Positions 8,652 to 14,047 of a stretch of DNA of 14,047 nucleotides are shown one piece after another. The stretch lies in the NCBI GenBank assembly GCA_026014905.1, contig JAOZHK010000205.1, positions 1 to 14,047 on the forward strand. The letters run 5' to 3'. The notes beneath the pieces were generated by a model that saw only the letters and a program-made list of their open reading frames with translations, did not search any database and had not been told where the DNA came from. The position numbers and the translations under genes were made by a program. The stretch is from Candidatus Bathyarchaeota archaeon (GTDB taxonomy: Archaea > Thermoproteota > Bathyarchaeia > RBG-16-48-13 > GCA-020355125). Positions within the stretch are counted from its first letter, which is position 1; each line of letters starts with the position of its first letter.

Positions 8652-9254
8652 TTAGTCGATGTTGATAGTCTCGCCTTTCGGAGCTTCTTTAGTCTTCTTA
8701 GTCAAGAGAACTTCAAGAACGCCGTTTTTATAGGTTGCTTTTGCGACTTTCGGATCTACTGGTTGTGGTAGACTGACTTCCTTGTAATACTTCCGCAGCT
8801 CACTGTCAACGGTTATCGTCAAAGCCGTCTCGGAGCAGTTCAATTTAATGTTTGATTTATCGACTCCGGGTACTTCAGCGAGGACGCGAATAGTGCCATT
8901 TTCGGAGATTGTGTCGACGAGGGGTTCGCGCTCTTCCCGTAACTCGAGGGAGGGTCGCTGACGTCCAAAGCGAGCTGGCTTGGAGGTAGGTCGAACATTT
9001 CCGAATTCACGGATTACAGGTTTCCCGTCTGGACCAACTTTCATAGAGTAACCGTACACGAAAGGTCCCATTTCCTTTATGGTGCCACCACTGGGCAGTT
9101 TTCGTTCTCGATACAGGTCTTTGGGAGCGTTATTAAGCATCTCTTGGACCATGTCGTCAAACATACGGTCGATTTCCTCAAATCCACGGAAACCAAAGAA
9201 AGGCATCCGTCTCCATCTTTTCATCCAGTGATCTGAGTCTTCGTCCCAGGACAT
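8652..9254 (-). CDS. Small heat-shock protein, Hsp20/alpha-crystallin family
   Basis: This 200-residue protein starts at the ATG at 9254. The N-terminal part is charged and aromatic (WMKRWRRMPFFGFRGF), followed by a Gly/Pro-rich linker. The alpha-crystallin domain spans about residues 110-187, with EVPGVDKSNIKL, ALTITVD and the diagnostic KNGVLEV. The C-terminus INI is the IxI motif that docks neighbouring subunits in the oligomer. The protein is an ATP-independent holdase that keeps unfolding proteins soluble in the cytoplasm. Start choice: GAGGTG at 9261-9266 lies six bases before this ATG, whereas a GTG at 9263 would overlap that site. The Shine-Dalgarno site overlaps the stop codon of the upstream regulator, so the two are one operon with probable translational coupling. 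Confidence 0.93.
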   Translation of the reverse strand: MSWDEDSDHWMKRWRRMPFFGFRGFEEIDRMFDDMVQEMLNNAPKDLYRERKLPSGGTIKEMGPFVYGYSMKVGPDGKPVIREFGNVRPTSKPARFGRQRPSLELREEREPLVDTISENGTIRVLAEVPGVDKSNIKLNCSETALTITVDSELRKYYKEVSLPQPVDPKVAKATYKNGVLEVLLTKKTKEAPKGETINID

Positions 9255-9259
9255 ATTTT

Positions 9260-10015
9260 TCACCTCTTATTTGTTCTTAGGGTATTTTTTATTCGTTGAA
9301 TGAAAGTCAGATATTCCCCAAGTATCTGCTTACCGATGGGAGTTAACGTGTATTCATTGCGGGAAAGTTCGTGGAGGAGGTTGCGTTCAAGGAGGTTGTC
9401 AAGGTTCTCGTAGACAAGTTTAGGATTGATGCGTAACCGATATTCTCCTTTACTCCGTGTCTGCTTGAGTAGTGGTATCAACATTTTAACTCGTGTTTGA
9501 TTAGTTAGGAGATTAATGAATTCAATAGCTTCTTGGAAGGCATCTTCGATCTCGTCGTCGATCCACGGAATCTGCTCAATTATGATTTTATCTGCGTATT
9601 GTTGTGGGATGTGATGTCGGATAGTCGTGGGATTTGCGGTAAACGGGTAGAGTAAGACAATTTTCACGTTATGGATGGAGGCTAAGAGCGCTAGTTTTTC
9701 CCGGTCGATGAGGGGCTTAGTCGTGTTACAGAACGCAAGAACGAATTCTCCGTCTCGCGTACCGCAGACATCGATTGGTAAGTTCTGAAGAGCGTTTTTC
9801 GTTTGAGGAACGTGCAGATTAGCGTTGATGAAAACCTGTTGACAGCCTTTGTCGATCAAGAGTCGGGCAGCACAGAATTTCTCGAGTAAACGAATCTCAG
9901 ATTCGTTTTGTCTAGTGAAAGCCTCTTTAAAGGCTTGATAGTTCACGATGTGGCGTAATTGTACTTCGTTCTCTGCTTTTGTCTGGAGTTTCAGAGGGGA
10001 TTGATTTTCTCCCAT
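9260..10015 (-). CDS. Heat-shock-type winged-helix regulator with nuclease-like N-terminal domain
   Basis: The protein has about 251 residues from the ATG at 10015; numbers here count from a TTG four codons upstream. The C-terminal third (about 170-245) is a winged helix: LLTNQTRVKMLIPLLKQ, then the putative recognition helix NPKLVYENLDNLLERNLL, then the wing ELSRNEYTLTP. The N-terminal part (about 45-130) has the layout of a PD-(D/E)XK-type fold: AARLLIDKG, IDVCGTRDGEFVLAFCN, then LASIHNVKIVLLYP. Asp86 is kept, but the E-x-K catalytic pair is replaced by Phe99 and Asn101, so it should bind and not cut. It lies directly upstream of hsp20, as HSR1 does in Archaeoglobus fulgidus. The palindromes flanking its TATA box suggest that it represses its own operon until heat or another stress. 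The DNA-binding role is well supported; the nuclease-fold reading is moderate. Confidence 0.85.
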   Translation of the reverse strand: MGENQSPLKLQTKAENEVQLRHIVNYQAFKEAFTRQNESEIRLLEKFCAARLLIDKGCQQVFINANLHVPQTKNALQNLPIDVCGTRDGEFVLAFCNTTKPLIDREKLALLASIHNVKIVLLYPFTANPTTIRHHIPQQYADKIIIEQIPWIDDEIEDAFQEAIEFINLLTNQTRVKMLIPLLKQTRSKGEYRLRINPKLVYENLDNLLERNLLHELSRNEYTLTPIGKQILGEYLTFIQRIKNTLRTNKR

Positions 10016-10017
10016 CG

Positions 10018-10034
10018 TGTTACCCAAAGTAACA
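10018..10034. promoter_or_regulatory. Operator 1 of the Hsp20 operon, palindrome over the transcription start
   Basis: TGTTAC-CCAAA-GTAACA is a perfect 6-5-6 palindrome. It begins 3 bases upstream of the ATG at 10015 and covers the predicted transcription start (about 10020). A protein bound here would block polymerase loading. The layout resembles the CTAAC-N5-GTTAG site known for A. fulgidus HSR1, with a different half-site. Confidence 0.75.
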
Positions 10035-10041
10035 TCGCGGG

Positions 10042-10049
10042 TTTATAAA
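10042..10049 (-). promoter_or_regulatory. TATA box of the regulator-hsp20 operon
   Basis: TTTATAAA is centred about 30 bases before the ATG at 10015, which predicts a leader of only about 5 bases. It sits between two palindromes whose centres are 32 bases apart, about three helical turns. Confidence 0.7.
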
Positions 10050-10066
10050 TGTTACGAAAGGTAACA
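10050..10066. promoter_or_regulatory. Operator 2 of the Hsp20 operon, palindrome over the BRE
   Basis: TGTTAC-GAAAG-GTAACA is a perfect 6-5-6 palindrome with the same half-sites as operator 1. It abuts the upstream edge of the TATA box, where TFB contacts the BRE element. Together the two sites bracket the basal promoter. Confidence 0.75.
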
Positions 10067-10171: not shown

Positions 10172-10519
10172 TTACGCATATATTCCTCGGGGGTCTTCTT
10201 TTTGATCAGAGCGTGAAGAGGACACTCGTATTTGCGGGATCTTGTTTTCGTGTCGCTTGGTGATGTCGATATCGTACTCGATGAAACTTCGTACAGTTTT
10301 TAAAAGTCCTTGTTCGATCGCTTTCAACTCATCTTCAGAGAATCGAGACATAAAATCGAGATTCTGAATCCAATCCCTCCAACCTACAACACTTCGGTCT
10401 AGCGCGTTAAGTGAAAAAATCATAGCATTAATGATTTCGAGGCGGTCCCGTTTCTTCTTGGCACTAAGCTTCTCAATAGTTTGTAAGACAGCTTGACTCT
10501 GATTTACCCATTCTGACAA
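10172..10519 (-). CDS. Small helical protein, DUF2153-like, unknown function
   Basis: This is a 115-residue, mostly helical protein. Its core, DRLEIINAMIFSLNALDRSVVGW followed by ENELKAIE-like spacing (actual residues EDELKAIEQGLL) and FIEYDIDIT, resembles the archaeal family DUF2153, which has no assigned function; this match is from memory and moderate. No ATG is available. A TTG at 10519 follows GGGGATTAAA, and a TATA-like TTATTAAAAA near 10550 would put transcription within a few bases of it. The C-terminal 25 residues are polar and basic (RHENKIPQIRVSSSRSDQK) and probably disordered. It follows tRNA-Cys on the same strand and precedes the heat-shock operon, with its own likely promoter. 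Confidence 0.72.
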   Translation of the reverse strand: MSEWVNQSQAVLQTIEKLSAKKKRDRLEIINAMIFSLNALDRSVVGWRDWIQNLDFMSRFSEDELKAIEQGLLKTVRSFIEYDIDITKRHENKIPQIRVSSSRSDQKEDPRGIYA

Positions 10520-10589: not shown

Positions 10590-10665
10590 TGGAGCCGGGG
10601 ACTGGATTTGAACCAGTGTAGAGCCGGTCTGCAGCCGGCCGCCTCAACCTCTCAGCCACCCCGGC
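10590..10665 (-). tRNA. tRNA-Cys (anticodon GCA), CCA encoded
   Basis: The cloverleaf folds cleanly on the minus strand. The acceptor GCCGGGG pairs with CCCCGGC. The anticodon stem GCCGG/CCGGC closes the loop CTGCAGA with anticodon GCA. The T stem ACTGG/CCAGT closes TTCAAAT. The discriminator is U73, the cysteine identity base, and CCA is encoded at 10590-10592. Length is 73 plus CCA, with no intron. A short TTTT run follows the CCA. A TATA-like AAATTTATTA near 10721-10730 would start transcription near 10701, giving a leader of about 36 bases that contains a perfect hairpin. Confidence 0.95.
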
Positions 10666-13703: not shown

Positions 13704-13711
13704 TTTATATT
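13704..13711 (+). promoter_or_regulatory. TATA box of the second winged-helix regulator gene
   Basis: TTTATATT is centred about 42 bases before the ATG at 13750. The predicted transcription start near 13733 falls inside the second of two palindromes and leaves a leader that contains GAGGT. Confidence 0.6.
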
Positions 13712-13738
13712 ACCATAAGGTAATTACCTTTGGGTAAT
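13709..13738. promoter_or_regulatory. Double palindromic operator of the second regulator
   Basis: ATTACC-ATAA-GGTAAT (13709-13724) and ATTACC-TTTG-GGTAAT (13723-13738) are two perfect 6-4-6 palindromes that overlap by two bases, with centres 14 bases apart. They begin at the 3' edge of the TATA box and cover the predicted transcription start. A further GGTAA at 13741-13745 overlaps the ribosome-binding site. Autorepression by the gene that follows is the simplest reading. Confidence 0.72.
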
Positions 13739-13749
13739 GAGGTAAGCGT

Positions 13750-14047
13750 ATGACTCTTCGCCTCCAAATCGTACGTGATGACGAAATCATCTTTGATCTA
13801 CCACTCACCCCAACAGATGGGTTAATTAATGCCTTGGACGATGAACTCGAAACTTTTGAAGACGATTTCCACCAACTATCAAAGATCTTCACCGCCCTCT
13901 CGAATGAAACTCGATTATTAATGATGAAACACCTCATCGAGCAACGGCGACGCGCTATCAACTTCAGTGATTTCATGAAAGACTTGGGGCTGAATCCAAA
14001 ATTAGTCTGGGAGAACACAAAAAAGTTGAGAGCCGGAGGATTACTGA
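13750..14047 (+). CDS. ArsR-like winged-helix regulator, 3' truncated
   Basis: The frame is open from the ATG at 13750 to the window edge (99 codons), so the C-terminus is missing. The ATG is supported by GAGGT at 13739-13743, six bases upstream. The first 30 residues are beta-prone (LRLQIVRDDEIIFDLPL) and precede an acidic helix (DDELETFEDDF). The winged helix begins with LSKIFTALSNETRLLMMKHL, the usual ArsR/heat-shock regulator helix, then NFSDFMKDLGLNPKLVWENTKKLRAGGLL with the putative recognition helix. NPKLVWEN (82-89) repeats NPKLVYEN of the Hsp20 regulator in this window, so the two are probably paralogues with related DNA targets. The double palindrome just upstream suggests autoregulation. 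Downstream targets are outside the window; a chaperone gene could follow but this is a guess. A minus-strand frame over the same bases is a shadow. Confidence 0.82.
   Translation, partial: MTLRLQIVRDDEIIFDLPLTPTDGLINALDDELETFEDDFHQLSKIFTALSNETRLLMMKHLIEQRRRAINFSDFMKDLGLNPKLVWENTKKLRAGGLL

Follow-up and report, generated by a model that had tools for sequence, protein, structure and literature searches.

The two palindromes in front of the regulator-hsp20 operon of this Candidatus Bathyarchaeota archaeon are very probably operators of the adjacent regulator, which would act as an autorepressor and, in some lineages, would also control a heat-shock-like regulon of protein quality control. The window, i.e. 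the whole analysed stretch of 14,047 nucleotides, contains exactly two copies of TGTTAC-N5-GTAACA, which start 32 bp apart and have the TATA box TTTATAAA between them (Table 1). The initial annotation had described them as perfect palindromes with identical half-sites and centres 32 bases apart, flanking the TATA box of the operon with one copy over the BRE and the other over the predicted start. This description held at the positions given in Table 1, with the upstream copy locked to the TATA box. The start, which we take from general archaeal TATA-to-start distances, presumably lies at about 10018-10023, inside the downstream palindrome. As the ATG of the regulator starts 2 bases beyond this palindrome, the transcript probably has little or no leader. 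The operon runs leftward with the regulator first and hsp20 second, and their frames overlap. The closest relatives of the window were found in Candidatus Bathyarchaeota genomes with protein identities of 57-60%.

The palindromes stand out against shuffles of the window. A third exact copy of TGTTAC-N5-GTAACA was not present in it. When up to three mismatches were allowed, 8 matches were obtained compared to 5.4 expected, so that just the two exact copies stand out. None of 300 dinucleotide shuffles of the window yielded an exact TGTTAC palindrome. The window has one pair of 6-N5-6 palindromes with equal arms and less than 60 bp apart, whereas the 300 dinucleotide shuffles had none.

Table 1. 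Features of the window and genes carrying the operator in related genomes (window positions unless a locus or genome is named)
Feature	Location	Strand	Remarks
hsp20 small heat-shock protein gene	8652-9263	-	GTG start overlaps the end of the regulator gene; NF041800 archaeal Hsp20, 171 bits (cut-off 140)
Regulator gene	9260-10015	-	251 aa, ATG at 10015; N-terminal domain and C-terminal winged helix
Putative downstream operator, over the expected transcription start	10018-10034	-	perfect palindrome TGTTAC-N5-GTAACA, TGTTACCCAAAGTAACA
TATA box TTTATAAA	10042-10049	-	read from the sequence; same offset from the upstream operator in relatives
Putative upstream operator (BRE side)	10050-10066	-	perfect palindrome TGTTAC-N5-GTAACA, TGTTACGAAAGGTAACA; abuts the TATA box
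Short gene of the archaeal DUF2153 family	10172-10519	-	next gene upstream of the operon's promoter
tRNA-Cys(GCA) gene	10590-10665	-	upstream of the operon
Two palindromes ATTAC-N6-GTAAT	13709-13724, 13723-13738	+	right after TTTATATT (13704-13711)
Sister-type regulator gene	13750-14047	+	137-aa class, LNPKLVWEN; runs off the end of the window; 56% identity with the L152 protein (99 residues)
Regulator gene behind the site	all nine chosen genomes		
hsp20-type genes behind the site	G031, G032, G033, G034, G037, G038, G039		
Thermosome gene behind the site	G032, G033, G034		
cdc48 behind the site	G004		
dnaK behind the site	G031		between grpE and dnaK-dnaJ
HExxH protein gene behind the site	G031, G032, G033, G034, G037, G039		
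HExxH gene copies	L003 5730-6215, L004 3332-3826, L165 2278-2763, L103, L107, L133, L134, L137, L141		preceded by the operator or located in the operon of the regulator

The promoter was compared among relatives of the regulator. A first contig scan gave four loci, all of which contained the palindrome. A profile search then matched 74 out of 256 genomes of the class. Of these, 29 were strong carriers (best E 5.6e-30 or better), and the other 45, which matched mainly over the winged helix, had a best E of 6.9e-13 or weaker. In 398 genomes drawn from the phylum, 38 were matched, with one new strong carrier (G298) outside the 256. The final set comprised 30 promoters, namely the window and 29 relatives whose regulators were 29-60% identical over the matched part. 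Left out were L005-L015 (duplicates of one genome), the second copy G008:C28, L039 (G013; gene interrupted by N, twin site present), L040 (G031; the longer stretch L105 was used instead) and L041 (sister type, see below). Loss or degradation of the palindromes in relatives with the same operon would have refuted the initial annotation; the comparison did not refute it, as each of the 29 carried at least one and 26 carried two, some of them imperfect. Including the window, 30 of 30 promoters had a palindrome, 27 of them two and three a single one. A single mismatch is present in one of the sites of L016, of L037 and of L038. The upstream sites of L001 and L002 have a 6-base spacer, and that of L002, read by eye since it was not scored by the script, also has one mismatch. 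The upstream GTTAC lay at a distance of 16 from the TATA-like hexamer in 28 of the 30 promoters and of 17 in both promoters with the 6-base spacer (L002 by eye).

In the 18 aligned twins with 32-bp spacing, the arms and TTTATA formed the best-conserved columns. Within a 53-nt core, the window was 76, 72 and 64% identical to L001, L002 and L016, respectively, compared to 45-49% in the 200 nt beyond it, which is the level of shuffled sequence. The gene after the regulator was hsp20 in 20 of the 30 loci (cut by the contig end in L002) and cdc48 in six; the remaining loci showed the gene of an HExxH protein (two), an HExxH gene followed by cdc48 (one) or a contig end (one). Three changes of the partner gene sufficed on a tree of 28 regulators, which is the minimum for four classes.

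Twin sites and regulator occurred together. The strict twin pattern (17 bases between the sites, up to 2 mismatches) was present in 20 of the 256 class genomes, all of them within the 29 strong carriers, and in none of the 227 others, while its reversed control was found in 2 of the 256. Exact arms with a gap of 5-35 were found in 23 of the 256 genomes, again all carriers, with one genome for the control. Both patterns together covered 25 of the 29 strong carriers. In G001, G002, G003 and G034, a 6-base spacer, a mismatch or the presence of just one site kept the promoter from matching either pattern. The twin pattern is absent outside regulator carriers. Fisher p-values for this co-occurrence were below 1e-22, but these are too small because the genomes are related and their independence is thus overstated.

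Nine genomes were chosen to look for further genes with the operator: seven that form one part of the carriers (G031-G034 and G037-G039) plus G003 and G004, which had provided early loci. As to the choice of the seven, one-mismatch sites were above the control in six of them (G038 alone had 6 compared to 7). The exact motif GTTACYNNNRGTAAC was found 36 times in the nine genomes compared to 6 times for its reversed control, and all 36 sites precede genes for the regulator, hsp20-type proteins, thermosome, Cdc48, DnaK or the HExxH protein (Table 1). The identities of hsp20, thermosome, cdc48, grpE, dnaK and dnaJ were assigned by Pfam. A version with a 4-base spacer gave 2 sites compared to 8 for the control, which indicates that the N5 spacer matters. 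With one mismatch, 44 sites were counted in the seven genomes compared to 19 for the control. The other 21 carriers searched showed no such excess (70 compared to 115), so the system looks local there, with no sign of a wider regulon. In G001 and G002, a search with exact arms and spacers of 4-6 likewise gave just their own promoter sites; one-mismatch sites amounted to 1 compared to 6 for the control in G001 and to 2 compared to 1 in G002.

Five promoters of other genes have twin sites as well, with spacings of 32 bp (three), 30 bp (one) and 20 bp (one). Single sites lie upstream of the TATA box for hsp20 of G032 and G033, and downstream of it for the thermosome genes of G032, G033 and G034 and for hsp20 of G034, G038 and G039. 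In G031, four promoters (L102, L103, L104 and L105, preceding hsp20, HExxH, dnaK and regulator-cdc48 genes) all have twin operators spaced 30-32 bp. The twin operator at L111 2333-2381 (G004) stands before cdc48 with a leader of just over 160 bp and without a regulator in between. The regulator may have been lost from this spot, given that relatives have it there. Palindromes in L142 and L143, which lie at the same place within one long reading frame of G038 and G039 and have a 4-base spacer, look like chance. A TGTTAC-N6-GTAACA palindrome in G003 (L144 2037-2054) was not counted as an operator of the regulator either; it ends 18 bases before the gene of an ArsR-type regulator and more probably serves that gene.

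The HExxH protein has mostly about 162 aa. Its copies align with each other and all nine contain HEYLH, while no match over the cut-off was obtained for the copies scanned against Pfam, NCBIfam and PDB. Judged by its motif and its place behind the operator, it is likely a metal-dependent stress protein. A lipoyl synthase-like gene (Pfam LIAS_N, Radical_SAM) was observed just upstream of the operator and the HExxH gene in three genomes (L133 2397-3281, L134 1283-2179 and L141 2030-2920).

The regulator itself consists of an N-terminal domain (residues ~1-154) and a C-terminal winged helix (~156-250) with the highly conserved stretch INPKLVYEN. As the winged helix filled the structure search with the whole model, the N-terminal domain was modelled and searched on its own. 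In this model, it resembles the PD-(D/E)XK nuclease fold. The signature D...(D/E)-X-K was not found, and the lysine usual for the fold is missing, with no lysine conserved in the regulator alignments. D82 is invariant, and the expected place of (D/E)XK, which was set by judgement, reads CNTT, CETT, CQTA, CSAS and similar. In G031, the regulator has 117 aa and comprises the winged helix only, together with the same operators. This could be a truncated gene; if it is intact, the motif tracks the winged helix and the match to the operator does not require the N-terminal domain. A PDB sequence search with the single regulator protein gave no match, and the family profile matched hsRosR alone with an E of ~1, although such a search could miss a remote homologue. 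A structure of Phr exists, and up to an E of 1 the profile matched no Phr chain in the PDB.

A mode of action can be proposed from this arrangement. Under normal conditions, a dimer of the regulator would sit on each palindrome. The upstream dimer would lie over the TFB recognition element next to the TATA box and block the entry of TFB, the downstream dimer would cover the start region and block the loading of the polymerase, and both blocks together would keep the regulator-hsp20 operon low. Heat or unfolded protein would inactivate the repressor, so that Hsp20 and fresh repressor would be made together, and the fresh repressor would then end the response. In some related lineages, the scheme may extend to cdc48, thermosome, dnaK-dnaJ, further hsp20-type and HExxH genes, before which the same operator stands. 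Single sites on either side of the TATA box fit repression from either place, with a double lock in the regulator's own promoter. Autorepression through operators over the BRE and the start, as suggested by the initial annotation, gained strong support from the comparison, since the arrangement is conserved in relatives, locked to the TATA box, confined to carriers of the regulator and marks chaperone genes in some genomes.

The same annotation had placed both operators on one face of the helix. This agrees with the 32 bp of the window (3.05 turns), which was also the most frequent spacing among the 30 promoters (32 bp in 18, 32.5 bp in L001 and L002, 34 bp in three, 36 bp in two, and 30 and 31 bp in one each). 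As spacings of 30, 31, 34 and 36 bp exist, placement on the same face is no rule, and 34 and 36 bp do not agree with it. We consider the chances about even that the 32 bp simply reflect the geometry of the core promoter from TATA box to start and not a contact of two dimers on one helix face. The offset of the upstream site to the TATA box is constant and it is the distance of the downstream site that varies, up to 36 bp, i.e. 3.4 turns and near the opposite face. On the other hand, the spacing is exactly 32 bp in 18 of 30 promoters, and the spacings of the five additional twins include 20 and 32 bp, which are about one turn apart. That the upstream palindrome is an activator site recruiting TFB, with repression left to the downstream one, appears unlikely. 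Its locked distance to the TATA box would suit such a role, and PMC5937170 describes an archaeal regulator that recruits TFB, but both sites have the identical motif, and the single sites found upstream of the TATA box in some promoters and downstream of it in others fit one sign of control.

An autorepressor on these operators may also respond to a signal other than heat, such as oxidation, a metal or a ligand sensed via the N-terminal domain, with the chaperones being part of a wider proteotoxic response. Such a signal is conceivable, if rather improbable. C96 is invariant in both regulator alignments (34 and 23 rows), and the winged helix finds its best structural matches among HxlR-type regulators, some of which are redox sensors. 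The observed targets are, however, chaperone and Cdc48 genes and not redox genes, and the G031 version with the winged helix only argues for an operator match that is independent of the N-terminal domain. Action of the palindromes in RNA, as hairpins or as an RNA thermometer, is highly improbable and was set aside because of their positions. Although they can fold, their arms comprise only 6 bp, the upstream palindrome precedes the TATA box and cannot be within the transcript, and the downstream one would mostly lie at or before the expected start.

A second regulator gene at the right end of the window encodes a sister type, and the two palindromes before it are presumed to be its operators (Table 1). 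One genome therefore seems to contain both operator codes. The sister set comprised 20 stretches, 17 from the 45 genomes with weaker matches and three second matches (G001, G217). A protein with LNPK[LIT]VWEN, mostly of ~137 aa, was present in 18 of them, and all 20 had one or more [AG]TTAC-N6-GTAA[CT] palindromes close to the gene. The layout of the window recurred among these relatives. Where scored, the upstream palindrome starts 17 bases before a TATA-like hexamer in most cases and ends one base before it; downstream palindromes mostly start 7 or 21 after the hexamer. Similarity to hsp20 near the gene was detected in 17 of 20 stretches (tblastn with an E limit of 0.01; some matches were weak). 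Like the main family, the sister regulators are mostly located beside hsp20-like genes with operators around the TATA box. In contrast to it, they have no N-terminal domain, their half-site is mostly ATTAC with a 6-base spacer, and often three palindromes are present.

According to the account in PMC9133787, HSR1 and Phr are the only two archaeal heat-shock regulators. HSR1 of Archaeoglobus fulgidus is described there as binding CTAAC-N5-GTTAG before its own gene, which forms an operon with hsp20, and is proposed to keep the transcription machinery away until heat sets in. Likened by this published description, the window shares a presumably autoregulatory gene with hsp20 downstream in the operon and an N5 palindrome upstream. 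It differs by having two operators that flank the TATA box and by the half-site, which is GTTAC instead of CTAAC with three of five bases equal. With up to 2 mismatches allowed, the HSR1 motif had no match in the window, nor did its exact form occur in 168 loci, and the palindromes were therefore not assigned to the HSR1 operator class. The comparison with HSR1 drawn in the initial annotation consequently stands for layout and N5 spacing and less so for the half-sites. Phr of Pyrococcus furiosus is presented in PMC9133787 as autoregulated and as a repressor of hsp20 whose binding at the start site keeps the polymerase off the TBP/TFB complex. It shares with the window system the presumed autorepression and the site at the start; its 29-bp site overlaps the start, and the description given there mentions no partner on the BRE side, where the window has an additional operator.

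As to family relations, PMC5852551 places HSR1 and Phr in arCOG01684, argues that this family is ancestral and possibly common to all archaea, and names Cdc48 as a target. Membership of the window family is hence possible and, if confirmed, would lower its novelty. Two traits of arCOG01684 were found: a palindromic operator in the own promoter, by sequence in 30 of 30, and an operon of the regulator with hsp20 and/or cdc48. Compared to winged helices of the HVO_A0261_N, HxlR and ArsR types, the window protein remained below the Pfam cut-off (17.9 compared to 35 bits) and its winged helix is C-terminal. The Phr and HSR1 regulons are summarised in PMC10653856 as lacking thermosome genes, whereas in some lineages here the site stands before thermosome and dnaK genes. 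Overall, the system would work like HSR1 and Phr by analogy, without being identified as HSR1. For Crenarchaeota, PMC10746257 states that no heat-shock regulator is known, and a literature search for a heat-shock regulator or repressor of Bathyarchaeota gave nothing on the subject, as judged by titles and the start of abstracts.

Taken further, and only tentatively, the system may be a Bathyarchaeia repressor that combines a dead nuclease-like sensor domain with a winged helix and acts on a promoter with two locks, at BRE and start, the upstream operator lying within the TFB site. In some lineages, the switch of one operon would have grown into a regulator of thermosome, Hsp70, Cdc48, Hsp20 and the HExxH protein, possibly with sensing by the invariant cysteine. 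If this is true, heat-shock-type regulators would extend beyond Euryarchaeota, whereas the overviews in PMC9133787 and PMC10653856 name none outside that group. Phr and HSR1 are both from Euryarchaeota, and the operator code described here is conserved in another archaeal class. It offers a concrete and cheap test of chaperone gene control in Bathyarchaeia, including thermosome and Hsp70 in some lineages, and the natural series of promoters with one site, two sites and spacings of 30-36 bp could separate the blocking of TFB from that of the polymerase. The code also singles out the unannotated HExxH protein as a likely stress protein of these archaea.
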